Shown here piece by piece: positions 14,941 through 64,000 of a stretch of 64,000 bases of DNA. How positions within the stretch are numbered: the first letter of the stretch is position 1; the number at the start of each line of letters is the position of its first letter. This stretch comes from Eutreptiella sp. 'Long Island Sound 2002' (Eukaryota > Euglenozoa > Euglenophyceae > Eutreptiales > Eutreptiaceae): the NCBI GenBank assembly GCA_964036045.1, contig OZ038381.1, positions 142,204,096 through 142,268,095 on the forward strand. Reading direction: 5' to 3'. The translations under genes and the position numbers were made by a program. The notes beneath the pieces were generated by a model. It did not search any database, was not told the origin of the DNA, and worked only from the letters and a program-made list of their open reading frames with translations.

Positions 14941-14997
14941 TAAAAGTCTGATGTCTGATGTCTGATAGCCGACTAGGTCGCTATACACATAGCTGGT

Positions 14998-15228
14998 CGC
15001 CGGAAGGGGTTCCAGCGTTGGAAGGGTCTGCTGGAAAGGTGCCAAAAAGGTGCTGGAAGGGGTTCCAGTGCTGGAAGGGTCCGCTGGAAGGGGTTCCAGT
15101 GTTGGCAGGGGGGTTCTAGCAGGGTTCCAACCAGGGGTTCCAGCGCGGTAAGGGGTTCCAGCAGGGGTTCCAGCAGGGGTTCCAGCAGGCATCGTATCAC
15201 CTGTTTCACCTGCATTTTGTCCTCTTTT
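14998..15228. promoter_or_regulatory. Element 7 motif cluster upstream of the gene B exon
   Basis: Repeated 'ggaaggggttccag' and 'ttccagtgctggaa' palindromes followed by four direct 'gggttccagcag' repeats. They end just before a 'cctcttttag' splice acceptor at 15,230, so at least part of the cluster is probably intronic. Confidence 0.7.
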
Positions 15229-15230
15229 AG

Positions 15231-16292
15231 GCTACAGTGGATGTCTGGCCGCAACTGGTACAGCGGGATGAGTAGGTGGCCGAGCCGCAGCGGCGAGGAG
15301 ACAGTGCAGTATCTGTGGTGGACAGCGTGTCGGTCGCGTGGTAGGCCCGCGCGGTGGTGACTTGGCCAACGAGTGCAGCAGCAAAGCCAGGGGCCGTGGC
15401 CGAGCTCATGTTCCAGTCTGGTCAAACGCCGTGGTACAAGGTTCCGGAGCTCAATGTGGCGACAGCGAGCGGCATGAAGGTGGTGTGCACGTTTCCGGTG
15501 CGAGTGAAGAGTCTGCAGGGCAAGAAGCGAGCCGAGTACATGTTTGGCGTTGGAAAAGGGCTGCACCGATCTTGGTCGTACCAGATGTACCATGAGGAGG
15601 ATGGGCGGAGCGTGTGGTATGGTCTGCGGGGGCTGCAAGGCGTTCGAGGAGATGAGGTTCCGGAGTCCGTCATGAAGGTGTTCGCTGCATGGGTGAACGA
15701 GCGCAAGGAGAGTTACGTTGGTGGCCGAGGGCACACAAGGGGCGCTGCGATTGAGGTGGAAGGAGACGACGATGATGCCGAGGACAAGGAGCAGCCGAAG
15801 GACAAAGACAAAGACAAAGGCAAGGACAAAGCCAAGGACGAGCCAAAGGAGAAAGGCAAGGACAAAGGCCGGCGCAAGGACAAGGAGAAGGACAAGGACA
15901 AGGACAAGGGCAAGGACAAGGACAAGACAGCCCGGGCATCTCAGTCATCGCATTCGCAGTCCCAGTAGTCCGAGCAGTCCCAGCAAATGGTTGACGCTCG
16001 GGCTATGGCTGACGAGGTGGTACAGCAGTGCAAGGACTCCCTGACACAGCAGATGAGTGTGACCTTGAGAGATTGTGTCCCTTCGGCAGTGGCAAAGGCG
16101 ATGTCTGACGCCTCCAAGAGCAAGGCAGAGACACCGATTGGCCGGCTGACCAAGCAGCTTGAGACGGGGCGCGTGGGACGGGCGAGCGCCGAGGCCTAGT
16201 TGGACAAAGTGCGGAAACGGGTCAGGGAGTTGGAGCTGGAGAATGAGAGCATGAAAAAGAAGCTCGGTGGAGAGCAACACCAAGACGGCTGA
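15231..16292 (+). pseudogene. Element 7 accessory protein B (coiled-coil), decayed
   Basis: Not a recognised family; its relative is gene B of element 2. The exon starts after the acceptor at 15,230 with ATVD(V)WPQL, matching ATVD(L)LPRL at the same place in element 2. Next comes a domain with GQTPWYKVPEL (element 2: GQTTWHKEFEL) and a C-terminal AAWVNER-like helix. A lysine/aspartate-rich linker follows, with near-perfect KDKDKGKDK repeats (residues about 185-240), then a C-terminal coiled coil. One frame stays open from 15,231 to the TGA at 16,290 except for four stops, all TAG (15,273; 15,342; 15,966; 16,197), two of them in CAG-rich context. The repeats suggest a nuclear, nucleic-acid-associated protein; the function is unknown. 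Confidence 0.6.
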
Positions 16293-17077
16293 AGCAAAGC
16301 AACAGGCAGAGCAGCTGTTGGCGGTGATGGCGGGCAATTACAAGAAGGCGTAGGCACTGGACGAGACATTTTGGGACCTGCAGACGAGACCTGTCGGCAC
16401 CTGTTGGGACGTGGTGATGAGACCGGTTGGGACCTGGAGAAGAGCCCTGTTGGGACCTGAAGAGCAGACCTGTTGGGACCTGGTGCGCGGCGATGGTGCT
16501 GACGGCAATGCGCCATCTTGAACGGAAACCTTTTTTGGTTTTAGCCTCTGGGTTGCGTGTTACCTCGCGTAGGACATTAGTTGCGATCTGCACGAAGTGC
16601 CTAACGTGGTGTCACGAGTGGGAGGCTTCACATAGCCTACCCCTTAGGGACGTCACCAAGATTTACGCCCTATATGCATGCATTCATTCAAAGTTTTGAT
16701 ATATTATTGTAGCCTGTTTGATTCTGCACTGAAGGGGGTGGTACCATGGGGTGGAACACATGAATACACTGTACGACATTGCAAAGTGTTGACCATGACA
16801 TTGCATTGTGCCTGTGCCTGTCCCTTTGGCTGAATGAGAGGGAAAGGCAAAACAAGGGGGGGGGGGGCAGTGCTGGAAGGGGGTGCTAGAAGGGGTGCTG
16901 GAAGGGGTTCCAGCGCTGAAAGGGTTCGCTGGAAGGGTCCGCTAGAAGGGGGTTCCACCGCTAGAAGGGGTTCCAGCATGGGTTCCAGCAAAGAGGTCCA
17001 GCAAGGAAAGGGGTTCCAGCATGGAGACCCAGCAGGGGTTCTAGCGGTCACACCTTTCCTGTTTGTCACGAAAAACC
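16293..17077. other. Element 7 spacer between gene B and transposase
   Basis: Contains a short degenerate tandem repeat of 'gttgggacctg' (16,385-16,485), an AT-rich stretch near 16,690-16,730, a G run at 16,857-16,866, and the second motif cluster (16,870-17,050) placed directly in front of the transposase start. No coding signal is seen. Confidence 0.6.
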
Positions 17078-18729
17078 ATGGAAAAGGCGGTTGCCGCACT
17101 TGTGGGTAGCTTCCCACAGCTCAAGCTATACACGGCCATCAAGGGGAAGGCCCGGGCAGAGCGGCGGCACCACATACAGACCTTCATGCGGGAACTTTTA
17201 GTGGATCCGGAGGCAGTTGTCGTTGAGGGTGGTGGGGGCTTGTACATCCGTTTCGCCGGGCATGACGACGATGAGGACCCTCGTGTAGTGCGCGCAATCG
17301 GACTATGGGCCACCGGTAGGAGATTGAAGTTATCAATACGGCAGATGTTGGCCCTCCCGCGCGAATGCACGCGCCGCGATCTTGCCGAAGCGCGCACAAG
17401 GTTACCACCGTACTCCACCACAACCTATGCTATCAATGGCCCCAACATAATCGAGCGGCGGTGCGCAGCGACAGCAACACTAGAAGGCCTCGTTTTGACG
17501 CAGTTGAAGATAGCCGAGACCCTAGGGGAGCTTGAAGTGGAAACTGAGAAGATTTGGATTTTAATATGCCCCGATGCAACGTCATTATGGCACACATCGG
17601 TCACTAAGATCGATGTTTTTGTAAACTGCTGGGCCTCGGGGTTTTCTGCTGCGGGGGACATCCACAAATGGGTGATGTGGGTGTGCACGGATGGGCCCGA
17701 TGACGCTGTATGGCTGCAGGCTTTAGATGAGGATTCCGGCCTAAGCTCAAATCATCCACCTACAAGAAAGTTGTACATTCCGTGTCAAAAGCGAAACCAA
17801 AAAGTTTCAATGTAAACTGACCGGGGATGGGAAACTAATGATGGTGACGAACGGGGGGGGGGGGGGTGTTGGTGGGGCTGCCCCGATGCCACCGGCTTGG
17901 TGCCGATAGAGGGCACGGTAAACAAAATTTAATGGGGGGCATTTCTTCGAAGTGTGTGTATTCGCATTGGAGACTATGCACACGCAGGTTGTAGAGTAAC
18001 CAATGCTTTCAAGAAGCGCCTAACAGAAACTATTACCACGTTAACAGTGGGTGTTGTTGGAGTGCGGCGAATCGCTAGTGAGTTTGCCGATATATGGTGT
18101 ACCCTTTTAGCAGATGTAAAGCATGTGGTTCCTGCTGACAGGCTTTTCCAAAAGACCACTAAGGCAGGGCAATTTGATATCAGCACCTCTATGTTGTTCT
18201 TGACATACCCCAGGTACCATGTTCGAATTGTACATGGCCTCAGGAACCTTTTTCCTAACACCATGTTTGGTGGTGTCCTCTTGTGGACACTTATTGAAGT
18301 GTTGCTGCGCAATATGCGTAGCCTATATGCCTTGTGGAGGCAAAAGACACCATTGACCAATGGTCAGGTGCAAGAGGCCAAGACTCACTGCCGCAAAATC
18401 GGTGAGGCATGGCTCCGATTGGGTTGGAAGTCAACCCCATGGGTCCACTGGACAGTGGCCCATTGTGGAGCGGTGCTCCGAAGTTTTGTAACCTTTATGT
18501 GTTCAGCAGTCTACCTGCGGAACACAGGCATAAGCCTTTCAAACTTGCTGTCAAAAACAGCATGCGTGGGTGGTGTCTCCGCCGCCCACGCGTTTCACGA
18601 CGTGGTCTCACCCATGTATTGAACATGGAGACCCTTGACGTGGGGCTACGACATCGCGCGGCCCGGCAAAGGCTTGCCCTTGGCGAGGCCACAAAGGACC
18701 GAAGAAAAAGGCACTGCATGTACGCTTGA
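17078..18729 (+). pseudogene. Element 7 DDE transposase, frameshifted
   Basis: Homologous along its length to the transposases of elements 2 and 8: the MEKAV start, the LALPRECTRRDL segment, PDATSLWHTSVTKIDVFV (first acidic site), TGDGK (second acidic site, followed by a degenerate Cys cluster), the RIGDYAHAGCRV segment, the LGWKSTPWVHWTVAHCG segment and FSSLPAEHRHKPFK (third acidic site, E). It would cut and join the element ends. The first frame (17,078-17,815) breaks before a 12-G run at about 17,851. The middle resumes at about 17,940-18,500 and the E-motif C-terminus lies in a third frame (18,409-18,729). There is also an in-frame TAA near 17,930. Clearly inactive. Confidence 0.8.
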
Positions 18730-18796
18730 GAAACCAAATTTGAACCCGGTGGATGCATTTGGTGCCCTTCTGAGAAAAAATCCTTGGCGCAGAAAC

Positions 18797-19085
18797 TCCC
18801 CCCCGCAGAAAGGGTGCAGAAAGGGGGTTCCAGCGCACAAAGGGTGTGCAGAAAGGGTGCAGAAAGGGTGCTAGAACCCCTCTTCCAGCAAAAGGGGGGC
18901 GGTGTAGAAAATCCGGCAAAACGGACCGTTTCGGACAAAAGTGAAAATCAGCCACCAAAAGGGGCATAAACATGTGGTGATTGGCCCCAAACCACTTTCC
19001 AACCACACAAGGTGGTGTGGCTTGGGTAATCATGCAAAAAGGGCGCTAGAAGGGGGGGGTTCTTGCGCACACCTTCTAGCGACGC
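18797..19085. repeat. Element 7 right-end motif cluster
   Basis: Directly repeated 'agaaagggtgcagaaag', 'ggttccagcgc' and 'gggcgctagaagg' strings of the element 7 private motif, downstream of the transposase. The sequence changes character after 19,085, taken as the approximate right end. Confidence 0.6.
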
Positions 19086-19117
19086 ACCCCATTGACTGAG
19101 TCGAAAAATCATGACTT

Positions 19118-20693: not shown

Positions 20694-20737
20694 AATGTAA
20701 CTGCTAAGATCTGCCCCATTTTGTTCACATGTATGTG

Positions 20738-20930
20738 TACGCGTTATCCTACGCACTGATTTTGTAACACGCACAAACTAGCGAACCAGCGCATACGCGT
20801 TGCGATCTGAGTGCGTACGCGTTGTGATCTAAGTGCGTACGCGCTGGTATTTTGGCGCGTACAAGTTGGTATTTTAGCGCGTACGCACTCAGATTGCAAC
20901 GCGTGCGCGCCGCCTGTGGTGCCCGTACGC
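20738..20930. promoter_or_regulatory. Element 6 motif cluster upstream of gene B
   Basis: Closely spaced 'gcgtacgcgttg' and 'gcgcgtacaagttgg' half-sites in both orientations, ending about 100 bp before the gene B start codon. This is the position expected for promoter-proximal binding sites. Confidence 0.7.
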
Positions 20931-21036
20931 TGTTTGCAGCACTCGCGGTTGAATTGTGTTCCTTTCGACGTGACAAAGAAAATCTTTTTCTTTGCTTCAA
21001 GTGTGTCTTCCTTTTCTTAGTGCCTTTTTGCACCAT

Positions 21037-23260
21037 ATGGGTGGAAAGAAAAAACCGGCAAAGAAGAAGGTGGCAAGGAAAGGCGCCGTGCCTGCCGCCG
21101 AAGGCGGGGCCATCGCAAAGAAAGCGCCCAGGACAAGTGAGGGTCGAGCGGTGGTGGTGCCTTCGGAGGAAGAGGAGGAGGAGGAGGAGGAGGAGGAGGA
21201 TGTTGAGGTGGTGGCCGAAGGTAATAGGCCCGCCGAGATTGTGAAGTGGGCCTTGGAGGTCGGGGAGTTGGACGCGGATGAAACGGTGGACCGTTGGTTT
21301 ACGGACACTCGTGAGGCGGGAGATCTTGCACACGATGTTCATGGTGTTGTTGTTGTTCGTTTAACGTTGCGTGTCCAAGACGTTAAGGGTCTTCCACAAT
21401 TGCCATATTCATGGCAAGATGTTTTGCCTTTGGATGTGAATGCGCAAGCACAAGGTGTTATTGCAGTCGATAGTCGTCCGTTCTTGCATGGGCCAATGCC
21501 GATGCAATGCCCCACACCATTCTCCCTGTTGCTTTGTTTGAGTTTGTGGGTGAGCGTTTGCTCATGGTTTCCATTAGTTTGAGTCCTAGTGAGCGTGACG
21601 CACTTTTCACAACTATGAATGGGTGCTTGCGTAAGGGTAAGGTTGCCAAGACCCTTACGCAAAAATATGCCGTGTACGTGCCTCGTACGCGTTACGTTTT
21701 TCGTGCGTACGTGTTGCCTGGCCGACGCGTACGCGTCGGCCAGGCAAATCGTACGTGTTGGGGTAGCAACACATATGGGTTGCCCGAGCGGATCGTACGT
21801 GTTGCCCGAGCGGATCGCACGTGTTGCCCGTGTGGATCGTACGTGCTGCCGCACCAACACGTACGTGTTGCCCAAGTAGATCGTACACGCTAATGTACCA
21901 ACACGTACGCGTTGCGTGTGCTGACCACGCGTGCCATTTCACTCAGGTACGCACACGCTATCACCATTGCCCTTCCTCTCTTGCAGTTGCACGTGACCCC
22001 CTTCAAGTACAAGGAGCGGCGCCCTTGGCCCTCTGAAGCACAAGTGCGCCCAACGCCTCCGGATGTGAGCCGGAAGGTTTTGAAGCCGAAGGGCCTTCTT
22101 CAGAGCCCCCCGGGAGGCGCTCCACTGGTGGCCCCAGCCCCTGAGTCGATAGGGACAATTCCAGGGCAACTGGTGCAGGTGAGTAAGGAGGAGGTTATTG
22201 ACAATGTCCATGTTGGGGATGTTGCCAAGTTTAGTTTTTATGATCAGGCTACATTGCAGGTACGAACAAAGGAAGACAATGGTGCGGTCACATCGGCTGA
22301 GCCCGTGATTGTCCAATTTCCCATGTGGATGAAGGGGCATGCCGTTGGGAGGGACCCAGCAGCAGTTTTTATTGGGGGGACTTTGTACCAGATTAAAGGG
22401 GACAGCCACAGTTACGTGCAGACATGGCGTGTGCACGGAGGGCAGCTCAAGCAGGCCAAGCGTGTTCAATGGTCAGGGGTGGCGGGTTACCTCCCAATCA
22501 CTGACGTTGCTGTTGTTGCAGAGGTGGATGGGGCAATGGAGAGATGGAAGCTTCTCCTTGCGGGGAAGGTTCGGGGGAAGAGGGAGACGGAGACGGAGGC
22601 AGAGCAGGGCTATGACACTGACCAATCGCGGCATAGTGCTCGTGTGTCCCGTGCCAAGAAACCAAAGCTTGGTGCCAAGGGAGGGCCCACGGGTACAAAG
22701 CCCACTGGGCCCACCGCCTCCCCCTCAGCACCACTGCGTGAGCACCTCAAAGACACACAGCAGCAACTAAGAGCGCGAATTGAGGAACTGGAGAAGGTGG
22801 GCAAGCAGAGTGACCAGGCACAGAAAGCTGCAGAGGAGATGCTGAGGAAGGAGCGTGCAAAGTGGGAGGATGAGCGAAAAGAAAAGGACAATGAGATTAG
22901 AAACTTAAGAGAGAAGCTGCACGATGCCTCTGTGAAGGCAAGCAAGAAAGGCCCAGCCAGCCCTGGCCCTGGGCAGGGGGGGGGGAAGATGCGGAAGACC
23001 AGAAGAATTTTTTGCAACTGGCAGCAATGGAAATCAGGGATGTCCTTCTCCACGCCACCATATCCATTGAGGACCTGAGGGATTCACTCAGCGATGCAAG
23101 AGGCAAGGAGTCAACACGAGGGGAGAAGACTCTGCGTGCTCTTACATCATTGGGGGACAAGTACACTGTGCAGAGTCTACAGTTAGGCAAGGCGGTGGAG
23201 CAACCCAGTGGCTGTGGTAGTGGCGGTGGCAGAGGCCGTGATGGTGGTAATGGCAGTTGA
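21037..23260 (+). CDS. Element 6 accessory protein B
   Basis: Two-exon gene. Exon 1 (21,037 to 21,630/21,636) starts MGGKKKPAKKK, followed by a Lys/Ala-rich tail, an 11-Glu run and a folded segment (EIVKWALEVGELDADE, DVHGVVVVRL). A frame slip occurs near 21,485-21,510. Exon 2 starts after 'ctcttgcag' (21,986) and encodes a beta-rich domain (VGDVAKFSFYDQATLQV, then FIGGTLYQIKGDSHSYVQTW), a basic Ser/Pro linker and a long C-terminal coiled coil (EELEKVGKQSDQAQKAAEEM onward). A G run at 22,977-22,985 shifts the frame; the tail then continues as LQLAAMEIRDVLLHATISIE to a TGA at 23,258. The layout matches B in elements 1, 2 and 7, but sequence similarity is weak. Likely a dimeric nuclear protein; role inferred only. 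Confidence 0.6.
21637..21986 (+). other. Intron of element 6 gene B packed with private motifs
   Basis: The intron begins at a GTAAGG donor (21,631 or 21,637) and ends at CTCTTGCAG (21,986). Almost all of it is repeats of the CGTACG-type motif, for example 'gcgtacgtgttgcctggccg' and 'gatcgtacgtgttgcc'. Bases 21,714-21,747 form a 34-bp perfect palindrome centred on CGTACG. Confidence 0.75.
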
Positions 23261-23987
23261 CTCCCAGGGGCTGCTGCTATCCCCTCCCCTCACATATGTT
23301 TTTTGTTGGAGGGGTCGGAAGGGGCATGGCAGTCCAAGGACAGCGCCTATATTTGTTGGTTGCGCCCCATGGGGTAAGTCCTCCTCCGCTCTGCGCCGCA
23401 TCGCACGAGTGTCGTCCTTTGTGGGCCCCTGGTCTTGCGGTTCCTTCCTGCGATGCAGACAGAGTGTGTATGCAAGGAATTGAACCCACGGTTTCGAAAC
23501 ATAGGGAACATGCACATACCTCTAGACCAACCAGATGCCATACCACGTAACACGTAGGCGGTGCGTACGAACTGCGTACGCACCAGCAGATCAACACGTA
23601 CGCGTCGGTAATCTAACACGTACGCGTTGGTGAGTTGACGCGTACGTGTTAAGTTACTAAGGCGTACACATTGGATTAGCAACGCGTACGCGTCGAAACA
23701 CCAACACGTACGCGCCGCGCACCCAACGTACGTGTCAGAGGACAATCTGAAATCAAGGTTTTGAGAAATTTAGTATGGTTTTCCGGACACTCTGTGGAGG
23801 GAGAAGGCGACCTACGGTCGGCAATGTCTGCAATGGCACCGAGTGGTACAAGGGAAGTGCAAAAAGGGGTTGGGTTGGGTAGGGTGATACCCCACACATG
23901 AATTTTCTATGAAAAATGATACGTTTCTAACAAAGAGAAAACCAACGCGTACGAGTTAAGATTTCAACACATACGCGTCCATGTGAA
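23261..23987. repeat. Element 6 right side: spacer and motif clusters
   Basis: Downstream of gene B. 23,261-23,540 shows nothing recognisable. 23,558-23,735 and 23,940-23,980 contain dense 'acgcgtacgcgtc' and 'caacacgtacgcg' motifs next to the right terminal repeat. Confidence 0.65.
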
Positions 23988-24005
23988 CAGATCTTAGCAG
24001 TTACA

Positions 24006-46674: not shown

Positions 46675-46713
46675 CACGTCCTCGTTGCGCGTGCTTTGTC
46701 CTGTTTTCCGCAG

Positions 46714-47700: not shown

Positions 47701-47741
47701 CAACACTAGGGCATGAAGAAATCAGGCAAGTATCAAATGTA

Positions 47742-49397: not shown

Positions 49398-50246
49398 TAT
49401 AAAAAGCTGTGCACAAGGAAAAGGGCATCCTTGTTGCGTTGGTCTCTACTCATCAATTGGGGGCAGTAAGGGGGGTCAGTAAGGGGGTTACTGACTCAGT
49501 AAGGGGGTCAGTAAGGGGGGGGTTACTGGGTCAGTAAGGGGGTTACTGAGTCAGTAAGGGGGGGTCAGTAACCCCCTTACTGACTCAGTAACCCCCCCCC
49601 TTACTGACTCAGTAAGGGGGTTACTGACCTCCCCCTACTAACTCAGTAACCCCCTTACTGACTCAGTAACCCCCCCCCTTACTGACCTCCTTACTGAGTC
49701 AGTAACCCCCTTACTAACCCCCCTTGCTGACCTAGAAAGTGGTGTACCGAGGCAACTGTTTTCCTAGGGGTTGAATGTGGTTTCACTCTTTCAGATGGTA
49801 TGCCCATGCCATGGACACTAGCAAAGCGTTGCACAACACAAAAGGACATTGTCTGCACCCTCAAGTCACAAGAGTTGGAAAGATTGTTGATATCGGTGGA
49901 CCTCTCATGAAACACATCATCAGTGCGCCAACCACATTGTCATTGCTCAGAAAAGGAATTGGACGTGCCTTTAGGCACCCGATCACGCACCCATTCATGA
50001 GCCCATTCACGCGCCCAATCACGCATCCAATGACCCATCCCTTCATGAGCCCTTTCACGCACGCATTGACGCGCCCATTCACGTGTCTAATGACTCATCC
50101 GTTCGGGAGCCCATTCACGCACCCATTCACGCGCCCATTCACGCACCCATTCACGCGCCCATTCACGCGCCCATTCACGCGTCCAACCACCCATCCATTC
50201 ATGCGCTCGGTCGCACGCCCAGCGACGCGTGCACCTGCATGCTTGA
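49398..50246. promoter_or_regulatory. Element 2 transposase upstream region: motifs and a minisatellite
   Basis: 49,455-49,735 carries TCAGTAAGGGGG and CCCCCTTACTGA sites in both orientations. 49,775-49,975 shows nothing certain. 49,978-50,215 is a 12-bp minisatellite of 'cccattcacgcg' units. The open frame of about 267 codons that runs through the minisatellite is an artefact of its 12-bp period. Confidence 0.7.
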
Positions 50247-51460: not shown

Positions 51461-52000
51461 CTACAACACATAGGGATGCAGGCAATCCCCTTCCACACCC
51501 CCTCAGAGCCCACTCCTACCCTGACCCAGTTACAACTCGTAAAACTCAGGAAGGGGGGTCAGTATGGGGGTTACTGACTCATTAAGGGGGGTCAGTAAGG
51601 GGGGGTTACTGAGTCAGTAAGGGGGTTGCTGAGTCAGTAAGGGGGGGTCAGTAACCCCCTTACTGAGTCAGTAAGGGGGGGGGTTACTGAGTCAGTAAGG
51701 GGGTTACGGACCCCACCTTACTGACTCAGTAACCCCCTTACTGAGTCAGTAACCCCCCCCCTTACTGAGTCAGTAACCCCCCTTACTGACTCAGTAACCC
51801 CCCCCTTACTGTCATCTGGCATTTGTATGTGCCTGTGGTCTGTGACTATCTGTGACTGTTTGTGACTGTCTGTGACTATCTGTGACTGTCTGTGACTATC
51901 TGTGACTGGTCTGTGACTGTGTGTGACGGAAATCAGTGACGGATGTAATTGGGGGGGTGGGTGTCCCTCCCTCCCCCCCCCCCTGCTGTGACGAGGCAGG
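51461..52000. promoter_or_regulatory. Element 2 region upstream of gene B
   Basis: 51,545-51,815 has TTACTGAGTCAGTAA palindromes and half-sites. 51,838-51,925 is a short tandem repeat of 'ctgtgactgt/ctgtgactat' (about 11 bp). A poly-C run lies near 51,972. No coding signal is seen. Confidence 0.7.
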
Positions 52001-52373
52001 CGAATAATCACTGGGGGTTCTTGGGTTTTCCCCTTCCCGTGAACAACAAAGATTCCTAGCCCCTTTATGGGCATGGCGCACGAATAATCAGCGGGGGTTC
52101 TTGGGTTTTCCCCTTCCCCTCAACAACAAAGATTCCTAGCCCCTTTATGGGCATGGGGCACGAATAATCACTTGGGGTTCTTGGGTTTTTCCCTTCCCCT
52201 CAACAACAAAGATTCCTAGCCCCTTTATGGGCATGGGGCACAAATAATCACTGGGGGTTCTTGGGTTTTCCCCTTCCCCTCAACAACAAAGATCCCTAGC
52301 CCCTTTATGGGCATGGGGCACGAATAATCACTGGGGGTTCTTGGGTTTTCCCCTTCCCATCAACAACAAATCA
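52001..52373. repeat. 80-bp tandem repeat downstream of gene D
   Basis: Five units (starts at 52,001, 52,081, 52,161, 52,241, 52,321) of 'cgaataatcactgggggttc' continuing through 'ttgggttttccccttccc' and 'caacaacaaagattcctagc', with few mismatches. The last unit is partial and runs into the gene D stop. Recent amplification is implied by the low divergence. Confidence 0.9.
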
Positions 52374-53423
52374 TCAAATTCCTAAAGAACAAAGAGCAAA
52401 AGGGACACAGGGGGGAGCGGGGGGAGCAGGGCAGGAATCGACCTGGTGCCGCACATGTGCAGCCCAGCGCAAGAGCGTGGGTAAGGGGTGCTCGACACCC
52501 GGGAACTGGGTCCTCACCGAACCCGGCGGGGGGGGAGGCGGCACAGCGTACCCCAATTGCCGTGCGGGACGTTCCTCAGGGTGCGCATACGTGGGCATGG
52601 TGCTATTAAAAATGTTCTTGCGCAGTTTGTGGTCCAAACCACCAAACTCACTGCGGAGGTCTGCCGTAAACGAGGCAACCCCACCTTGAGCAAACCAATG
52701 CTCGAACTCGAGCAACTTTTCCTTGACCTGGTTAACCATTGGGGCAGGGGGCAGAACAATGGCGGTGCGAGGCTCAGCGCTACCTAGCAAACATGGGCCG
52801 CTCTAGAGTGGTAGAGCTAAAATAGTCCCGGTGGTGTATTTCGTTGGTGTTGCTGCACCAGGAAGGTCTTCGAGCCAAGCTTGTGGCTGGCGGCTGTGAA
52901 CAGAGTAAACCGGCACCCGCTGCTCACAATCTGTTGAGCGAACATAGCGAAGTTGCTGCACGCATTGTTGGGGGCACCATTGTCCCTCTTGAAAATCGCG
53001 AGGTTTCGGCTTCTGGACACTAAATTGAACTGCACCATGCAACGGTGCAACCCAAAGTTTTTGGTTTTTGTTCACTGTTGTGGTGATTTCCTTATCGAGC
53101 ACTTTGGTAAGGTGGTCATACTCTGCGAAAGGGAGGCGGATCTGGAAACACGGCACGTGGGGGTGGCGAGCTGCGATGTCGAGGATAGAATCGGAAAGCA
53201 CACACGGTGCCCTCTTGTCGAAGAGGGGGAAAGTCACCTTGACGGAACCAAAATCCGTATCCGCGGGAAACTCAACGAACTCACTCGCATGCTTAACAAC
53301 CGCACCATGCTCGACAAACCCGTCCCCCCCCCCCCCGTACCCGCGTGTCCCAACTAGGTTATTGACATGGTTAACCCACGTTAGGACGGGCGGGAAGGCA
53401 GCCAGCAGCCCAGCACAAGCCAT
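52374..53423 (-). pseudogene. Element 2 gene D, unknown protein
   Basis: Starts MACAGLLAAFPPVLTWVNHV (53,423). The readable blocks are FVEFPADTDFGSVKVTFPLF, CVLSDSILDIAARHPHV, RLPFAEYDHLTKVLDKEIT and, after a one-base slip near 53,040, NLAIFKRDNGAPNNACSNFA and FTLFTAASHKLGSKTFLVQQ. Past a stop and another slip comes APMVNQVKEKLLEFEHWFAQ, then DLRSEFGGLDHKLRKNIF and a Pro-rich end. I recognise no family and see no HxD...H dioxygenase pattern. It occupies the same slot (third gene, furthest from the transposase) as the dioxygenase of element 1, so it may be alternative cargo. Confidence 0.45.
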
Positions 53424-53487
53424 GGCACTCCGGGGCCACAAAAAGTCTAAAAGGAGAACAAAAGTGTGCAGGAAGGACACAGCGCAA

Positions 53488-53864
53488 AACTCAGTAAGGG
53501 GGGTCAGTAAGGGGGTTACTGAGTCAGTAAGGGGGGGGTTACTGAGTCAGTAAGGGGGGGGTTACTGAGTCAGTAAGGGGGTTACGGAGTCAGTAAGGGG
53601 GGTTCAGTAAGGGGGGTTACTGCTCAGTAAGGGGGTTACTGACCCAAGGTCAGTAACCCTTATTGACCCAAACGGGGGGGGTTACTGACTTTTTTCAACT
53701 TTGTCTACCGAGGGCATACGGGCGGAGAGACACATGTCCTCCCCTATTTTGGGCATGGAGAACATAAATATGCGCCTAGGTCCTAGCAATATGGGCACAT
53801 GTGGTGATGGCAGAGGTGTCCATTTTGGGGGGGTTACTATAGACCCCCTTACTGTGTTACACCC
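53488..53864. promoter_or_regulatory. Element 2 right end: motif cluster and terminal repeat
   Basis: 53,488-53,690 is a dense array of 'gggggttactgagtcagtaa' sites upstream of gene D. 53,690-53,830 shows nothing recognisable. The terminal repeat ends at 53,864. Confidence 0.75.
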
Positions 53865-54361
53865 CAAACCCCTCCGTGCCAACCCAAGAGGGACAAGCTG
53901 CCTGTGGACACTGCAAGGTGGAGGAGTACGAGCTGCTGTTCTCGTGCTGGGCAAGTTATGGGTGGGGTCATGTTCGGACCCACACGCCTCCGGGTGCCAC
54001 CGCAAAGACCGTCCACCACTTCTACTTCAACAAGGACCCACCGAGCTTCATCAACGCGACCGACGCGGGGGCAATGGCCTTCAAGAACGAGTGCGCCTCG
54101 GTGAGAAGTGCGGGTGCCAGTTTGCTGCGGGGGTCAGCAAAGAAAGGAGCCAGTGCCGCAAGGGCACTTGCAACCGGCGCCAGGGTCAAAACCACGGCGG
54201 TCAAGGACGAGGAGCAGCCGCAGCAGCAGCAAGTGCAGTAGCAGCAGCTCCAATAGCAGGCAGCCGTGCAGCAAGCAACACTGCAGCTGCTCCAGCAGCA
54301 GCAGCGGGTGCATATGGCCCAGCAACAGCAGCAACAACAACAACAACTGGCACAGGCACAG

Positions 54362-54486
54362 GTACGCGCTATGTTTGCCATTGCGCGCGCTTTCGACGTT
54401 GTTGCGCGCGCTTCATTTCATGTAGCGCGCGCGATTTGATTGTTTGCGCGCGCTACGGCCCTACCTTCTGTCCCATTGTCACGTAG
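54362..54486 (+). other. Intron in element 3 gene B with GCGCGC motifs
   Basis: GTACGC donor and ACGTAG acceptor. The interior is a run of 'ttgcgcgcgctt' and 'tagcgcgcgcga' sites, the same motif as in the element termini. Confidence 0.75.
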
Positions 54487-55083
54487 GTGGGCAGCTTCGA
54501 GCAGCTCCTGTGCCTGGGATCCCGCAGAGGGCCGTTGATGATCAGCGTGCCCGCGGACATTGCCGGGCAGTCCAAGCATGCGGCCGACTGGCTTGACGGA
54601 CGGAAGGAGCAAGGCCCCTCCCCGGTGCTGGCCCGGGCTAAGCGGCAGCTGGAGGAGCTGTAGGTGGACTGGGCCGACGCCTTTGCCGTGCCGGAGACGG
54701 AATCCGTGACAGTCCCAAGGCCCAAGAAGAAGCGTACCGAGGAGCCAGCAGCCACCAGCCACCTACCACCAGCCATCACCGCCTCCCACACCGCTAAGCC
54801 CCCCCATCCGCCTGGAAAGGTCCTTGCCCAGAAGACTGCCGACCAGCAGCTGCTGACACAGGCGGCACAGAGAGTCCAACGTCAGGCGGAACAGGCCAAG
54901 AAGAAAGAGGACGAAGCAAAGAAGAAGAGAAAGGAAGAGGAGGAAAAGAGGAAGAAGAAGGAGGAGGAAGAGGAGGAAAAGAGGAAGAAGAAGGAGAAGG
55001 AAGAGGAAGAGAGGAGGAAGAAGAAGGAGAAGGAAGAGGAGGAGAAGAGACGGAAGAAAGCAGAGGAGGAGAAAGCAGAAAAG

Positions 55084-55198
55084 GTAATGCAGCGCGCGCT
55101 ATCGTTGTCATTGCACGTGCTATGCATTTCGTCGCGCGTGTTATGCTCCGTATTGCGCGTGCTATGCCTGTGCTATGCCTCTGCGCTACTCTTTCCAG
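55084..55198 (+). other. Second motif-filled intron in element 3 gene B
   Basis: GTAATG donor and CTTTCCAG acceptor. It contains 'cagcgcgcgctatcg', 'cgcgcgtgttatg' and 'ttgcgcgtgctatg' sites; exon phase is preserved across it. Confidence 0.75.
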
Positions 55199-56161
55199 GC
55201 AAGCAAGACGGCACCGCAGCAGGCACCCCAGCCGCAACTCGCATCAAAGCCAGCACCGAAGCAGCCTATCCCAGTCCCAGACCACCCACAAGAACAAGGA
55301 GGTCTGTGCGGTTCCACCCCACCCAGTACGGGTCCCAAGGCCAAGCAGCAGAGCAGAGCCGACGCAGACAAGGAGGCAAGAGATGAGCTCATGCAGCGCC
55401 GAGATTGGTCCTACAAAGAAGGCTACAAGCCTCGGTGGATCATCTACTGCACCACTGCGATCGCGCCGATGATTGTGGAGGGAGCCGAAGTCAAGCCAGC
55501 AGGCGCCAGGGCCCCTCAAGACCACGTGGCCGTCATCATCCCCAACGATCAGTGGAGCCCCAGCCAACAAGGGGAGGAGGAGGAAGAGGACGACTGCTCG
55601 GAGTTCATGCCCAGCTGCCAGGTGTTCTCCGCCAAAAGCAAAGCGTATGAGGAGTTGGACAAGTGGCAGTCGTGGTGGGAGACGTACGAGGCCGATGAAA
55701 TTGTGGACCTCTGCCCCGACCCAAAGACCATGAGGATGTCCCCGTCCAAGCCACCAACCCCAAAGAAGAAGAAGCCCCAAGGAGACCCACCAGCCCAGCC
55801 ACCAGCCCCCCCACAAGAAGACAAGGGACCTGCCGAAGCTGCAGCACCAGCAGAAGCACCAGCAGCAGCTGCACAAGAAGAAGAGGCACCAGCCCCAGCA
55901 GCAGCAACAGCACAAGAAGACGACGCACCAGCCCCACCACAAGAAGAAGAGGCACCAGCGGCCGCGCCACAAGAAGGAAAAGGAGCAGCCCCAAAAGAAG
56001 AAGAGGCACCAGAAGGAGCAACCCCAGAAGGCGACCCAAGCCCACAAGAAGAAGGGGATGCAGCCCCAGCTGCCACTGGGGCAAAAGACCACAGACCCGA
56101 ATGGGAGAAGGAGTGGGAGGCCGAAGTGGTGGTCCAAACCATTCAGGAGATCACTGAATGA

Positions 56162-56531
56162 CAGCGCGCGCTATACCTAGTATAGCGCACGCCGTAAGGC
56201 TCATAGCGCGCGCTGTAAATATTTTGCGCGCGCTACACTGTCTGTGCCCGTGAGGACCTGTACTGTTGCACACTTTTCAGACCTTTCAGACAGTGTTTTT
56301 GCATGTGTCTTGGGTTGGTTGAGCAACAGGGAATGTTTTTGAAAAGCAAGGGGTTTTTGAGAAACACAGGACACTGGAGAAAGCAGTTTGAAACATTTTC
56401 CGGTTTTGAAAAATTTGAAAAACGGGACAATATAGCGCGGTAGAGCGCGCGCAATAGGCGCGCTATAAAGGTCATATTTTTGAAAATTTGCGCGCACTAT
56501 GGAAAAAATGCACCATTGCGCGCACGCAGGG
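56162..56531. repeat. Element 3 right subterminal region
   Basis: GCGCGC motif clusters at 56,163-56,240 and 56,425-56,531 frame a 180-bp AT-rich stretch nearly identical to 28,215-28,400 in element 3s. It ends in the terminal repeat. Confidence 0.8.
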
Positions 56532-56674
56532 ATGTCGATCTCAACGGTCTTCTCACGAGTATCCCGCTTGGGCGTACAAGTCCCTGGTCCTTTTTCCGGC
56601 GTCTTCTCCACCAGCATGACACTTGCCGAAAATAGTGGCATGTGCCTCAATAATGAGGGGCCGACACGTGGCGG
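56532..56674 (-). pseudogene. R1 gag-like fragment between elements 3 and 4
   Basis: The minus strand reads VGPSLLRHMPLFSASV, then VEKTPEKGPGTCTPKRDTR, and EKTVEID into the element 3 junction. It connects in frame to 58,455 (across element 4) and to 37,141 (across element 3). Confidence 0.6.
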
Positions 56675-56879
56675 ACCATATTCCTTTATCTACCCGCCTA
56701 TGTGCAGCCGAAAAAAAGCAGCCGAAAAATTTTTCGTCACAAAATTTTATGAAAAGTGGTACACCTAGGTTTTTGAACGTGCCGAACGCGATGGAAACGT
56801 CCGTTTTTGATGGTTTTAATTTTTTTATTTTTGGCTGCAAATGTGCAGCCGGTATGCACCCGAAAGCCTCAATTGGGGC

Positions 56880-57066
56880 AGTTTTTAAGCAGAATTTTGG
56901 GTGCAGTATGCACCCGGGCTGCACACGTGCAGCCAAAAATACACCCAGTGTCCCTAATTTTCCGGGAATCACACCGTTTGGCTGCATCTTTGCAACCGAT
57001 TGGCTGCAAAGTGCAGCCAATCGGCTGCACTGTGCAGCCATTTGGATGCATAGTGCACCCGTTTAA
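56880..57066. promoter_or_regulatory. Element 4 motif cluster upstream of its gene
   Basis: 'ggctgcaaagtgcagccaat' and 'tggctgcatctttgcaacc' type sites in both orientations, then a TTTAAATAAA box-like sequence at 57,061-57,070, about 50 bp before the start codon. Confidence 0.65.
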
Positions 57067-57118
57067 ATAAAGATATGCATCTCTCTTGTTTCTCGTGTTT
57101 GTCCCAGAGTCACACATC

Positions 57119-58238
57119 ATGGCTATGCCCCCCCTGCCTGACGACTATCAGCGGGAAGCTGGTTACCTCGCGGTGACCAAGCCCGAGGAATTGGAGTTTG
57201 AGACGTGCATCTGCTTCCAGGTTTGATGCCCCTTGACTCCCGTTACACCCTGCTACGTGTGTTCCCCTGCATTCACGCTCCCTTCACACCCCTTAATTCC
57301 CATCCACTACCTGCACTCATCCACTTCGCATGCAGAGCACAGCGGCACCCAAGCTGTAGTATGCAGCTTGGGTGCAGAAGAATGCTCCAAAGAGCAAGAA
57401 GCTCTGGTTGACGAGCATCGTCAGCTACAAGGTCACCGGTCGGGGCAACAACCGGGTGGCCGGTGCCACAACCAACGTGGCTGATGGTACATGGAAATAC
57501 TCTGAGGTGTGCAGCTGTCCTATTGCCTATCCTATCGCTTGCTTTTGTTCTTCATTGTTGTTGTGTGGTTTACCTAGGAATTTCCATCTCCGTGCACTTG
57601 TTTTTCAGATCACAGCGTTGTGGTCCCAATGGAAGGATGACTCGGATGAGGAAGGACAGGAGGAGGAAGAGCAGCAGCAGGAGGAGGAGGAGGAGGAGGA
57701 GGAAGGGGAAGACCTAGGGAAGGTCCCCATCACCCCTCCCCCCAAGAAGGCCCCCCGCACCAGCCAAGGGAAGGAGATCGTGAAGAAGGGCAGTCCCAAG
57801 GCCCAAGAAGCCCGAAGCCCCAAGCCCAGCCCCAAGAAGAAGGCCAAGAAGGCACTCCCCGCCACAAGTTTCAAGAAGATCGTGGTCAAGGAGGGGCCGA
57901 CCCGGAGGCAAGCAAACTTGCGGCGCCCTGGGTTCAGGCAGAAGATCCAGCAGGCCTTGGAGACCTGCGCAGAGGCCGGGTACAACTTTACCTGGGCCAA
58001 GTGGCGCAAGCACTACGCCGAGTGCATCGCCCACGCCGCCAAGGGGCAGCGGGCCTACTACAAGGAGCTCTTCTGCCTCGCATGGTCTGGGTTGCTGCAC
58101 GACGGGATGGCTGCACATGGGCTGCACATCGGCTGCACAGAGCTTACCGTGGCTGCACATGGGCTGCATGTTTTGGGCATGGCTGCACAATGGCTGCATA
58201 CATGCAGCCAAATGGCTGCACTCATCGGCTGCAAATAA
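57119..58238 (+). CDS. Element 4 accessory protein
   Basis: Three exons: 57,119-57,220 (MAMPPLPDDYQREAGYLAVT); 57,336-57,506, with a TAG at 57,357, or starting instead at 57,378 (KNAPKSKKLWLTSIVSYKVT), both acceptors keep phase; and 57,609-58,238. The middle exon encodes a small domain ending VADGTWKYSE. Exon 3 has ITALWSQWKDD, a 16-residue Glu-rich run, Pro/Lys repeats (PKPSPKKKAKK), then FRQKIQQALETCAEAGYNFT and WAKWRKHYAECIAHAAKGQR. The last 45 residues are a translation of the GGCTGCA motif, so the natural end may be earlier. TAA stop. Small domain, acidic-basic linker and helical C-terminus fit the B-type plan. Confidence 0.55.
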
Positions 58239-58454
58239 ATACGTTTTGGCTGCAGACATGAAGCCATTTGGCTGCATTTGTGCAGCCATTTGGCACACAT
58301 GCAGCCGAATGGCTGCACAATGCAGCCACTTTTTTGGCTGCTTTTTTTTGCCACCGGCTGCACTTGGCTGCGTTGGTCCCATCGACTGCCGAAAAAGCAG
58401 CCAAAATCCTGGCGGGGTCGCAGCCGACCCAGCCGGTAGATAAAGGAATATGGT
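58239..58454. repeat. Element 4 right-end motif cluster
   Basis: Continuous 'ggctgcatttgtgcagccat'-type palindromes up to the terminal repeat. Confidence 0.75.
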
Positions 58455-60214: not shown

Positions 60215-60829
60215 ATCATGTTAAATCAATCTTTGGAGATGGTGTGTGTTTGGAAAATGTTGTGTGCACGTGCAGTGGGTGAAAATGTTAAAGGTGGAAA
60301 ATTGCACCTATGCCTTGGTTGCTTGCTTGGTTGTATGCCGTCTTAAGTCGTTGACTTTCGGTGAATTCACATCATTGGTCGAACACGGTTGGTGATCCAC
60401 TATCCCTCCTTTGTCAACTTGCAGTATGGCATGAGGATAGCTCATTTGATTTGGCAATTGGGTGTAGGGATAATCCTCAATCAATGTCGGAGATTCTCCT
60501 GGATTGGGGCGGGACTATCTCTCTTGGAGGCGGGGCAATCTCTCCTTGGGATAGGACAATCTCACCATGTGTCAGATGTGCTCTCATTGAACCCGGGAGA
60601 TCTCTCCAAGTGCACTCTCTCTGCGGGCCGGGTCTATGGGATGCAGCGTTCTAGGGCGTGGTGCGGAACCCCTAGTTAGAACGCAATTTCTGGAACACCC
60701 ACCTATACCCTTAATTTTGGGGCAAACCACCTAAAAAAATGGATTCAGCACCCTCAAAAACCCCCCATCCCCTTTCTTTCCCCACATAACCCTCATTGTA
60801 GGGGTGGTTTTTGGGGGGGGGGTCAAAGA
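60215..60829. other. Non-coding stretch before element 8
   Basis: No gene supported. A plus-strand frame near 60,389-60,679 has repeated 'ggcgggactatctctcttgg'-like text (60,505-60,555) but no recognisable domain. A G run lies near 60,812. Confidence 0.4.
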
Positions 60830-60837
60830 GTTAGAGC

Positions 60838-60955
60838 ACAGTTAGAACAGAGTTAGAACGCAGTTAGAGCACCTTGCTCTAACTAGTTATCGCGCTAGTT
60901 ATCGCGCGATAACTCAGTTATCGCGTAGTTATCGCGTGTAGTTATCGCGCACCCC
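60838..60955. repeat. Element 8 motif cluster downstream of the transposase
   Basis: 'agttagagcaccttgctcta' and 'gttatcgcgcgataactcag' palindromes and half-sites. Confidence 0.75.
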
Positions 60956-61019
60956 TCCTCCATCCCTCACTAGGACAAACAACAGAAAACACTTGGCACA
61001 AAGCATGTATGGTCTTTTT

Positions 61020-63430
61020 TCATACAAAGTCATCAATGTCTGAGGCCTTGGCTGCCTCCAATCCCAAAAGCCCTTGCTCCAGGGCGTTCATGGACATGCA
61101 ATGGTGCATGTGGCGGAGGGACATACTTGGCCTCACCAAGGACCAACCCTTAAAACAATTTTTGAGCCTCCTCTTGTAAGGCCCATGCCGATACTCCGTT
61201 GGGATGGAGGAAAACTGAAAAATGTTCCTCCATTTCTTGGCAAAAAAGGTGGAATGTGCCAAGCACCAATGGATCCACCTGGTGGGGGACCAACCTGAGT
61301 CTCCCCACGCTTTCGAAAATTTTGTGGTCAACGCACGGTGGCGTTCCACTTGGGTTAGAGTGTACAACTCCCTCACCCTCCAAAGCTCATACAAACCCTC
61401 AATGCATTTCACCATGACATGCACAACAACCCATAACATAGGTCCCCCAGGGGTCCTCACTGTGGGGACATGCTCTTTGAGGCAATCCACAAATTGCCTT
61501 TGGAAGGGGGGGGGGGGTTAGGAAAACTTTGGTGCTGGTTAGATCGAAATCTTGTTCTGTGGCCCTCGAGGCCGAAGGGAGGCGTTCCCTGAGAGGGATG
61601 CCTGAGGTCTCATCCTTGTAACTACGAAGCCAAGGGACATTCGCCAACTTGCTTCGGAATGCAGCCAAATCATGGCGGGTGTCTATTATGTTGTTACACT
61701 GGCTACCTAGGGATTTTTTCCTCCTTTTTGGTGTAAATGGAAACTTTTTACCCTGAAAAACCCCGGGTTTCATGCCCCTCTCGTGCTGAAAACACTCATA
61801 CACGGTGAAAAAGTCCCAAAGTTGGCTTCCCGGGCCTTGGCTGGCCCAAATTCGCAAGTTGGCGCGCGCCAACTCCGGAGTTGGCGCGCCAAATCCTGAC
61901 TTGGCGCGCCAAAACTGTCAAGTTGGCGCGCCAAAACTGTTAAGTTGGCGCGCGCCAAGTGTCCCCCCACCGATCCAACTGTTAGGCGCGCGCGACTGGG
62001 CTTTTGGCGCGCGCGACAGCCGGACTTGGCGCGCGCCAACTTGACAGTTTTGGCGCGCCAAGTCCGGATTTGGCGCGCCAACTCCGGACTTTTGGCGCGC
62101 CAACTTGCGACTTGGCGCGCCAACTTGTGAAAAAACTTTGACTTGGCTTCCAAAAAGTTGGCTTCGACCCAAAAAACCGACATATTGCAACATAACAACA
62201 AAGCAACGCAACCATAAGCTGTAAAATATAGATAGTTCCTCACGTTTCATGCACAAGGCGTAGCAACAACACAGTGCACAAGTACAAGCAAGTTGAATGC
62301 TCTCGACATGGAGTTGACCAGGAGTTGGCGAATGTACAGTATCTGGGGTTGGCTTCGTAGTTACACTTGAGGGCTTGTTTGAAGGCCTGCAAAGCTGCAA
62401 GAGCTTGGGCCTTACCAGGGGTACCAGGGGGGAGGGCCTGAAGGGTGGTCTCAATGCGCTTTGCAATGCCGTTTAGGATGCGGCATGCTGCATGTTGGTA
62501 GTCCCCCGGCCGCCTATCAGGGGTCACACTTCTCAAGAATGCCCCCCATCTTGAGGTGGACTCCACCCCCCTTTGCTCAACAATCCCATTGGGGTCTTTG
62601 CACAACCAACACTTAGACCCAGCCCCCCCCATTGCTTGCATCCCCTTCCCATCCCCTGTCAAAATGACAGTGCAAGTCAAAAATTGGTTTTGAAAGAGGA
62701 CAACGTCCTCTTCCACATCCCTCACCTCTTGGTTGAGGTTGGCGGAGATGTCCAGGCTTCTCAAAAAAGCCTGTTCATCCCCGCCATCCATGCAAAACCA
62801 TGAGGCCCATAGCTTCACCTTCGAAGCATATTGTGCCCCCCCCCATACATTAACCCATACATCCGCACGGGTAGAGGATGCCTTCCACAAGGAAGTCGCA
62901 TCAACTGAAATAACAACAATGGCAACGCCACTAGGGGGGGGTTTCCCAATAACTCGGGCCATAGATATTGCATTTTGCACAATTGATTGCAAAGGCACAT
63001 GGGCAGCTGCCCTATTGCGGCCTGTGGTAGACTTTACAATGGTTATTTGGGGAAAGTAGGGCATGATCCGTTGCCGAACGGTCCTTAGGTCCCGTTGTGT
63101 GCAACGGCGGGGCATTCGCAAAAGGGCCCGTTGGGAGAGATGCATGCTGCATGCCATGCGTAGCATGCTCAGGGCCTCATGCTCCTGAGCTGTTAATGCA
63201 AGATGGCCGCCAAGTGGGCCAGACAGGGCAGTGCACGCCCCACCACTTAAACAAACTTCGCCTTTGGTGTTGGTGCCACACACGACGTCTGGGTCACCCA
63301 ATAGAACTCGCACCAGCCGCTGAACCGCCTTCAAACGCCGCCGCCGGGCCTTGGGGCACTGCAGATCGGTGTACCGCCGGAGGTTAGCTGTGTTGAGAGC
63401 CCGCAGGGCCTCATTGACAGCACTGTCCAT
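61020..63430 (-). pseudogene. Element 8 DDE transposase
   Basis: MDSAVNEALRALNTANLRRY start at 63,430. Then LLRMPRRCTQRDLRTVRQRI, ISVDATSLWKASSTRADVWV (first acidic site), ILTGDGKGMQAMGGAGSKCW (second D, then CWLC), TPDRRPGDYQHAACRILNGI. After a non-coding interruption come VPWLRSYKDETSGIPLRERL, a G run (61,507-61,518) that shifts the frame, GWSPTRWIHWCLAHSTFF and FSSIPTEYRHGPYKRRLKN (third site, E), ending in TGA. All three catalytic positions are present. The frames break at the interruption (about 61,820-62,290) and at the G run. The interruption may be an intron (acceptor-like 'gttttcag' near 61,794) or a separate insertion. Confidence 0.75.
61856..62115. repeat. TTGGCGCGCCAA cluster inside the element 8 transposase
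   Basis: More than ten TTGGCGCGCCAA or GGCGCGCGCCAA sites in 260 bp, spaced about 15-25 bp. They interrupt the element 8 transposase, yet the motif differs from the GTTATCGCGCGATAAC motif of that element. Either an intron with a second motif or a remnant of another element. Confidence 0.75.
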
Positions 63431-64000
63431 GAAGAATAAGAGGACCTGGACACGAAATGAGGGAGGGTTTTGAAGCAAGGGCCCAAAAAACACACGCGAT
63501 AACCCACGCGATAACCCCCGCGATAACTAGGTTATCGCGCGATAACCCCCGCGATAACCCCGCGCGATAACTAGTTAGAGCGCGATAACCCCCCGCGATA
63601 ACTAGTTAGAGCACCCAGTTAGAGCGCGATAACCCCCGCGATAACTAGTTAGAGCAGGGGTTAGTGCGCACTAACTGGTGGGGTTAGAGCAAGCGTTGGG
63701 CACCCTAAAACCTTCACAAACGTTGATTTTGCACCCAGGAAACCTTGGAGATTTCAACAATGTGCAGGCACGGGGTACATGGCGCCACAATCACAAATTC
63801 AAATCAGTCAAATGGACATGTTCCGGGCTAGTTGCCCCTCCTCAGAGTACACAATGACAAACCATGGTGGGCATCCCACCAAAGCAGAAAAAATAGAATT
63901 TGAAATAGTGAACAATAATCGAATCACAAATTACACTAGCTGGAGGGGTTAGAGGGAGCATTGGGCACCCTAAAACCCATGGACAGCAGCTGCTGCCGCC
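63431..64000. promoter_or_regulatory. Element 8 transposase upstream region
   Basis: 63,490-63,680 holds 'ggttatcgcgcgataacccc', 'cccgcgataactagttagag' and related sites in front of the transposase start (minus strand). 63,690-64,000 shows no gene. Confidence 0.65.

Follow-up and report, generated by a model that had tools for sequence, protein, structure and literature searches.

The 64,000-nucleotide stretch of the Eutreptiella sp. 'Long Island Sound 2002' genome considered here (contig OZ038381.1, positions 142,204,096 to 142,268,095; hereafter the window) opens with a palindrome-rich satellite (1-14.1 kb), after which comes a pile of DNA transposons, several of them nested. Each of eight transposons, el1 to el8, carries a palindrome-like word of its own, repeated in its promoters, introns and termini and not in its exons. 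Both features had been proposed in an initial annotation of the sequence and are borne out; the interpretation offered there is supported in part. A search of the window yielded no Rfam match, and the splice sites given below are predictions. In what follows, gene A encodes the transposase, while B and C denote further element-encoded proteins. The two transposons for which a motif search over genomic copies was run are laid out as follows (TIR, terminal inverted repeat; 2OG, 2-oxoglutarate; arrays are given without strand).

39661..46674, minus strand: el1, a DNA transposon with TIR TGTACCCTTCGTGAAC and the 2-bp target-site duplication CA, within an el3 intron
40149..41876, minus strand: el1 gene A, RAG1/CMCT-like transposase of 576 aa
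42993..44042, minus strand: el1 B exon (B domain; homologue of el9 B)
44043..44347, minus strand: el1 predicted GT-AG intron that holds a motif array and links the C and B exons
44348..46267, minus strand: el1 C exon with 2OG-dioxygenase-like residues (HxD..H, kept in el9)
39925..39992: el1 array of TTCGTACGAA, 3' terminus
41996..42151: el1 array upstream of gene A
44145..44305: el1 array within the C/B intron
46333..46404: el1 array upstream of gene C/B, 5' terminus
47323..53866 (approximate), minus strand: el2, ends TGGGGTGTAAC..GTTACACCCCA, the left end of the window copy being TA; inserted in el3
47745..49398, minus strand: el2 gene A, RAG1/CMCT-like transposase with Glu at the expected first Asp
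50250..51460, minus strand: el2 gene B (exons 51224-51460 and 50250-51085), homologue of el7 B with a charged C-terminal tail
47336..47690: el2 array of TTACTGA[G/C]TCAGTAA / CAGTAAGGGG, 3' terminus
49459..49731: el2 array upstream of gene A
51544..51811: further el2 array, probably intronic, 5' to the 51224-51460 exon
53489..53690: el2 array, 5' terminus

The true ends of el2 are probably TGGGGTGTAAC..GTTACACCCCA, because TG precedes the left end in 9 of 11, and CA follows the right end in 13 of 14, of the el2 ends listed. El2 also contains an 80-bp tandem repeat (52001-52370; 4.6 copies, 94% matches). Homopolymer breaks in the B reading frames of el1 and el2 may be sequencing errors, as may that of el6 B, whose frame shifts, by eye, at a poly-G run (22975-22990).

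Beyond 14.9 kb, 287 nine-mers that are not of low complexity occur at least five times, versus 46, 37 and 19 in three first-order Markov controls. All 20 exact copies of TTCGTACGAA lie at 39937-46389, in el1; the ten of TTACTGAGTCAGTAA are confined to 49543-53576, in el2, and the four of TTGCGCGAGGCCTCGCGCAA to el5. Own words were then counted with 0-4 mismatches tolerated, depending on the motif, and with exons drawn by hand from open reading frames (ORFs) and splice sites. Summed over the eight elements, 150 fall in own non-coding DNA and none in own exons, versus 16 near-matches in the rest of the window; the Markov controls give a chance expectation of 0-0.2 words in own non-coding or own exon DNA. 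These exons were fixed before the words were counted, which leaves room for some circularity, from which the tests at other loci are free. The counts per element (own non-coding, own exons, rest of window) are:

el1: 28, 0, 1
el2: 24, 0, 0
el3: 32, 0, 10
el4: 17, 0, 4
el5: 7, 0, 0
el6: 15, 0, 1
el7: 10, 0, 0
el8: 17, 0, 0

El3-type near-matches make up 10 of the 16 strays, and 9 of these 10 fall in el8, whose palindromes are likewise CG-rich. Word shape varies: that of el2 is of odd length with a central G or C, and that of el4 is an 8-mer present in both orientations.

The same placement recurs elsewhere in the assembly (2,280,300,865 bases in 2205 contigs), which was searched for other copies. 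The el1 array pattern has 931 + 900 occurrences there, and a reversed control none. At ten el1 loci, picked for clustered array matches and with coding regions defined by tblastn, 257 words lie outside coding DNA and 0 inside. At 29 of the 30 el2 loci fetched (the window's own excluded), with coding defined in the same way, the figures are 261 and 0, and for half-sites 448 and 0. Four word clusters occupy matching places in five complete el1 copies, one of them in the C/B intron. The el1 TIR is found at both ends in nine further loci, with a 2-bp duplication in eight of the nine.

The remaining elements are arranged as follows.

37139..56534, plus strand: el3, TIR CATCCCTGCGTGCGCGC, interrupted by the nested el1 and el2
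37584..37696: el3 A intron (GT-AG) with a TAGCGCGCGCTA-type array
39130..39204: el3 array between the A and B genes, mostly of 21-bp period
39576-46713: el3 GT-AG intron hosting el1 (124 bp minus el1), likewise with a motif array
54362..54486: el3 B intron (GT-AG) with an array, mostly of 21-bp period
55084..55198: el3 B intron (GT-AG) with an array
56162..56500: el3 arrays, 3' end
56675..58454, plus strand: el4, with a B-like gene and TIR ACCATATTCC
56832-57057 and 58092-58396: el4 arrays of TGGCTGCA/TGCAGCCA
31309..35988, plus strand: el5, with a 29-bp perfect TIR and target-site duplication TCTTG
31504, 31791, 34236 and 35622: exact el5 palindrome TTGCGCGAGGCCTCGCGCAA, with a near copy at 34181 and weaker copies besides
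20696..24005, plus strand: el6, with a B gene, TIR TGTAACTGC and duplication AA
20733-20913, 21675-21955 and 23558-23985: el6 ACGCGTACGCGT arrays of 22-bp period
14960..19090, plus strand: el7 (termini approximate), B at 15345-15968 and transposase pieces at 17045-17815 and 17933-18622
15009-15190, 16870-17035 and 18820-18890: el7 GGGGTTCCAGC/TTCCAGCGCTGGAA-type arrays
60829..64000, minus strand: el8, which extends beyond the window; transposase 62243-63526 and 61023-61848
60883-60950 and 63495-63645: el8 GTTATCGCG(CGATAAC) arrays
61856..62127: intron-like gap of the el8 transposase with a second palindrome, TTGGCGCGCCAA, of 20/22-bp period

No target-site duplication of el3 or el4 was seen by eye, and no TIR for el7 was found in a search of the window. 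The exact 14-bp palindrome that the initial annotation gave for el7 does not occur in the window, where the nearest copy has one mismatch; among 74 B homologues, however, 5 predicted proteins run on into peptides that the full el7 palindrome could encode (shuffles, 0/1480). El8 contains 21 TTGGCGCG half-sites, and beyond the window, at ~65.2-66.5 kb, it has a B-like gene with a GTTATCGCG array. Its inner palindrome TTGGCGCGCCAA is unlike its GTTATCGCGCGATAAC. The second palindrome may reflect word turnover or a nested insertion.

Among the surroundings, 28099-29798 is an inverted, internally deleted copy of the el3 ends with arrays kept (97-98% to 37142-37983 and 55733-56385). The satellite (1-14118) consists of 26/52-bp palindromic units (TCAAATATTTGA, TGACGGATGTACATCCGTCA) and 41-bp units, that is, palindrome arrays on a larger scale. 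A ~480-bp direct repeat at 25867-27270 (25.87-26.34 and 26.79-27.26 kb) is nearly identical by eye, with 97-98% over two short ORFs, and is adjoined by reverse-transcriptase-like sequence (RVT_3, E 0.011, below cut-off).

Within the arrays, spacing is informative. In el6, 14 of 16 spacings are 22 bp and the other two 44 bp; in el3, 13 of 23 are 21 bp; in the inner array of el8, 9 of 10 are 20 or 22 bp. The distance is constant in these three while identity in the flanking columns is near-random (0.25-0.36). Conservation of the word columns is built in by their selection for similarity, but spacing and flank divergence are free of this bias. This is the pattern that would be expected of sites on one helix face, unlike plain unit duplication.

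It bears on a rival explanation of the words, namely that they are neutral tandem-repeat expansions, tolerated only outside exons, with each family having founded its own repeat. Indeed, Tandem Repeats Finder detects many of the arrays, 21 of the 25 el1 spacings are 11 bp with single-base spacers, el2 spacers are runs of C or G, and the targets of the VANC21 protein of Arabidopsis VANDAL transposons, according to the cited passages, likewise grow as tandem repeats (PMC5735166). Neutral growth nevertheless fits poorly with word and spacing being kept among unrelated flanks in el3, el6 and the el8 inner array, with the recurrence of one word at several separated places, and with a different word standing at the four el1 places in the relative el9 (see below). 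Moreover, exons could have held the el1 arrays, because these are open in several reading frames; peptides from translated arrays occur in 11 of 67 el1-family proteins predicted from other copies (shuffled, 0/67). We therefore consider the neutral explanation very improbable. Less credible still, and close to negligible in our judgement, is that the palindromes act in RNA, as intron or leader hairpins, or as sources of small RNA. Inverted palindromes in a transcript can pair, and CpG-rich repeats are generally known to attract RNA-directed DNA methylation (RdDM), but palindromes of 10-16 bp are loopless by themselves and a phasing of 21-22 bp is a feature of double-stranded DNA.

Whether words and proteins diversify together, as the initial annotation supposed, was examined in four diverged relatives outside the window. 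In el9 (loci L052 and L051) the proteins are 40% (A), ~29% (B, E ~1e-10) and 30% (C, E ~1e-41) identical to those of el1, with the same gene order and strand. TTCGTACGAA is absent from el9 within one mismatch; TGAGCGCTCA is present in 26 + 14 copies (at most one mismatch), 0 of them in coding DNA, and at L052 clusters at the four places known from el1: the 3' end, upstream of A, between B and C, and upstream of C. In el10 (L054, 4 kb examined), whose transposase is 60% identical to that of el1 and whose TIR TGTACCCTTTGCGAA is similar, TTCGTACGAA is likewise absent, and TTCGCGCGAA lies at the 3' end and upstream of A, with none within A. The el10 query P0027 has at least 93 matches, down to 59% among the matches listed, probably including el1 copies. 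A decayed el1 copy in L049, at 81%, keeps a degenerate TTCGTACGAA. The el1 lineage thus offers a graded series: the same word at 81% transposase identity, two bases changed at 60%, and a different word at 40%. Co-diversification is borne out in el9 and el10, two of the four relatives; the other two are taken up below. Over the six families with a comparable transposase (el3, el4, el5 and el6 have none), word similarity correlates with transposase identity (r 0.79, 3/720 permutations), with the qualification that several of these identities come from partial alignments and that much of the signal is due to the el1-el10 pair.

This correlation would also follow if the transposase itself read the palindromes as subterminal sites, B being an accessory or a passenger. 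Consistent with such a role, arrays lie close to both termini wherever the ends of el1 and el2 copies are readable. Yet introns and promoters distant from the ends are filled too, where end recognition needs no sites, and in el4 and el6 arrays and a B gene persist although no transposase was seen between their TIRs when one was looked for. On balance, recognition by the transposase seems unlikely.

Several of the transposases appear to be of RAG1 type. Gene A of el1 has D1, D2, HxxxxH and E; the second Cys of CxxC is Arg in the window copy and is kept in P0002, which is 97% identical to the el1 transposase. The full set of signature residues occurs in P0002, in P0041 and, across two pieces, in el8; the el9 and el10 transposases match all signature patterns, while in that of el7 D1 alone was seen. 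All three patterns are matched in 13 of 44 el1-family homologues, and in 9 of the 13 homologues that are at least 480 aa long. The HxxxxH+E pattern arises by chance in 7 of 880 shuffles, and the spacing of 20 residues from H to E is that of RAG1 H942/E962. A low-confidence model of the el1 transposase gave RAG1/Transib as the first rank in VIA-align and no significant match in Foldseek; the assignment to RAG1 type is thus suggested by the VIA-align ranking and the residues. In Pfam scans, none of 23 proteins from the window or related to it exceeded a family cut-off, nor did one alignment; the transposase and C alignments, run as profiles against solved structures, returned chance-level rows only (E 1.6, 0.95), and scans of viral contigs with the el1 and el2 transposases found no relative. 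P0041, a Joint Genome Institute (JGI) metagenome protein from a 2.5-kb contig, is 34% identical to the el1 transposase, so members of the family also exist outside this genome.

The B proteins appear to fall into two groups, el1/el9 and el2/el7, the latter with weaker links to el6 and el8. A single B domain everywhere, as judged by eye, was rejected, because the sequence comparisons made showed no relation of el1 B to the B of el2, el6 or el7. A B-family search gathered 74 proteins, of which 60 (one being the window's own) are nearest to el7, 14 to el2 and 0 to el6. The initial annotation stated that most elements encode a coiled-coil B, which is borne out only in part. Heptads are clear in el6, el8 and el9 (0-2/200 shuffles), and el1 B shows a periodicity that 3/200 shuffles reach, but in a stretch without the look of a coil. 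The C ORF of el1 (703 aa) has 23 homologues, one of which, P0045, represents 193 member sequences. H375, D377, H444 and R432-G-D-M are conserved across five aligned C proteins, including that of el9 at 32%. This residue pattern has the look of 2OG-Fe(II) dioxygenases, with the HxD..H iron triad of TET/JBP. Pfam gave no dioxygenase family for C and PDB no match, and the C protein model (predicted local distance difference test, pLDDT, 30) is unusable. The C and B exons of el1 are predicted to be joined into one gene by the word-filled GT-AG intron, and the same layout suggests the same joining in el9.

It is established that the words are private, that they are placed in non-coding DNA, that their positions are conserved in el1 and el2, that the word has changed in two of four relatives, and that three arrays are phased. 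Tentatively, and with a confidence just short of even, we propose from the sequence that the private palindromes are candidate binding sites of the B protein of the same element, whose coating of them would provide a mark of self, anti-silencing and pairing of the ends. B would dimerize through its predicted coiled coil, each dimer taking one palindrome, and arrays would be filled by B along a single face of the DNA helix. Promoters, introns and ends so coated would be marked as 'self', keeping off silent chromatin or DNA methylation, and the coating would also give the transposase paired element ends. In el1 and, by its layout, in el9, the B domain would be the C-terminal part of a protein with an N-terminal 2OG-dioxygenase-like part, so that the reader may come with a demethylating enzyme of its own. 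If word and reader diverge together, the families would become mutually orthogonal. In its boldest form, which strikes us as improbable, C/B would be a self-aiming DNA demethylase, a 2OG dioxygenase joined to a coiled-coil reader of only its own family's CpG-bearing palindrome, one of at least ten orthogonal reader-word pairs, largely in RAG1-like transposons, that police their own copies.

Several observations weigh against recognition by B. Flank identity is 0.63 in el1 and 0.42 in el2; just 7 of 20 el2 spacings are in helical register, the spacers being C and G runs, and in el4 the register is weak (8/15). Because of these spacers, flanks and el2 register, plain duplication is possible for the el1 and el2 arrays. 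Heptads are weaker in el2 (11 and 23/200 shuffles) and el3 (16/200) and absent in el5 (47/200), none of the three being significant; the B of el4 and of el7 has no scorable stretch. The el1/el9 and el2/el7 B groups are not demonstrably one family, the el3 and el5 transposases show no relation to the RAG1-like profile in a profile comparison (E 0.07 and 0.24), and el8 has two different palindromes. The comparison of diverged relatives comprises four cases. L049 keeps the el2-type word at a transposase identity to el2 of 42% or 60% (two comparisons), so proteins can diverge while the word stays. L050 (52% or 68% to el2) is mixed: one end has an el2-type word, and other parts have a TTCTAGC-type repeat. 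At L050:1200-7990, TTCTAGC-type repeats occur in the promoter and elsewhere with an el1-type array nearby, possibly a hybrid or a nested pile.

B might also read the word without any anti-silencing function, as a TnpA-like transposition factor and repressor acting in end synapsis and autoregulation. According to the cited passages, CACTA elements pair their transposase with a TnpA-type binder of divergent subterminal motifs, a suppressor that is required for transposition (PMC2613891), and several transposases here are CMCT-like. However, binding in its own introns would be a roadblock on the element's own transcripts, a poor fit to a suppressor, and placement in introns and promoters is the pattern reported for VANC (PMC5735166). 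A VANC-like role is preferred to a purely TnpA-like one because the words are placed in introns; we regard the latter as unlikely.

VANDAL elements are Mutator-like elements (MULEs), and neither a MULE transposase nor VANC domains (DUF1985/DUF287) appear in the Pfam lists, taken to E 10 (one of them the best 25 of 41) or to E 1. In the cited passages, VANC21 binds the introns of its own VANDAL family, as well as the family's intergenic and terminal non-coding DNA, and removes methylation there (PMC5735166), and VANDAL target regions are under RdDM pressure (PMC10398659). As in that Arabidopsis system, a short non-coding motif, often tandem and found in introns among other places, is private to a family and differs between related families (PMC5735166, PMC10398659), and a protein is encoded beside the transposase (PMC5735166). 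Unlike in VANDAL, several transposases here are RAG1-like, the words are palindromic, and some are in helical phase; moreover, binding and hypomethylation are proved for VANC (PMC5735166), whereas binding by B is putative. CACTA/EnSpm elements with TnpA/TnpD resemble the present ones in combining a transposase, a separate predicted DNA-binding protein and divergent motif arrays near the termini, and co-diversification of motif and binder has already been proposed for TnpA (PMC2613891). CACTA arrays, however, are described as subterminal (PMC2613891), whereas here promoters and introns have them besides, and the termini are not CACTA/G: el1 has TGTACCC (TGT..ACA), el2 TGGGGTG, el6 TGTAACTG (TGT..ACA) and el5 CTTAGGC.

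With Plavaka, ESTA, RAG1 and Transib (the CMCT clade) these elements share C(2)C and H(4)H between D2 and E, and 2-bp duplications (PMC12730594, main text, where 'subterminal' does not occur and whose passages covered here do not mention motif arrays). The PlavakaA-type combination of TGT..ACA with a 2-bp duplication is present in 8 of 9 two-ended el1 loci and the window copy, and in el6 in the window; Plavaka membership of el1 and el6 is not claimed, there being no Pfam match. Fungal TET/JBP DNA transposons, as described in the passages cited, also have a 2OG-dioxygenase-like gene with HxD..H residues (PMC12730594); unlike there, no TET/JBP Pfam family was detected in C, and this domain and B are predicted to form one protein.

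No description of the present elements was found in searches of the open-access (PMC) literature, subscription papers and Repbase lying outside this scope. The idea that an element encodes a reader of its private word is already in print; palindromic phased words throughout RAG1-like transposons, and a reader joined to a dioxygenase-like domain, were not found in the literature searched. To our knowledge, VANC and TnpA are the precedents of transposons with their own sequence-specific recognition system. Compared with these, a single genome here holds several homologous putative reader-word pairs of graded divergence, many at high copy, which makes protein-site co-evolution directly testable. 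If the dioxygenase reading were true, the elements would be natural targeted epigenome editors. The RAG1-like transposases, for their part, would enlarge the set of V(D)J recombinase relatives by one lineage.

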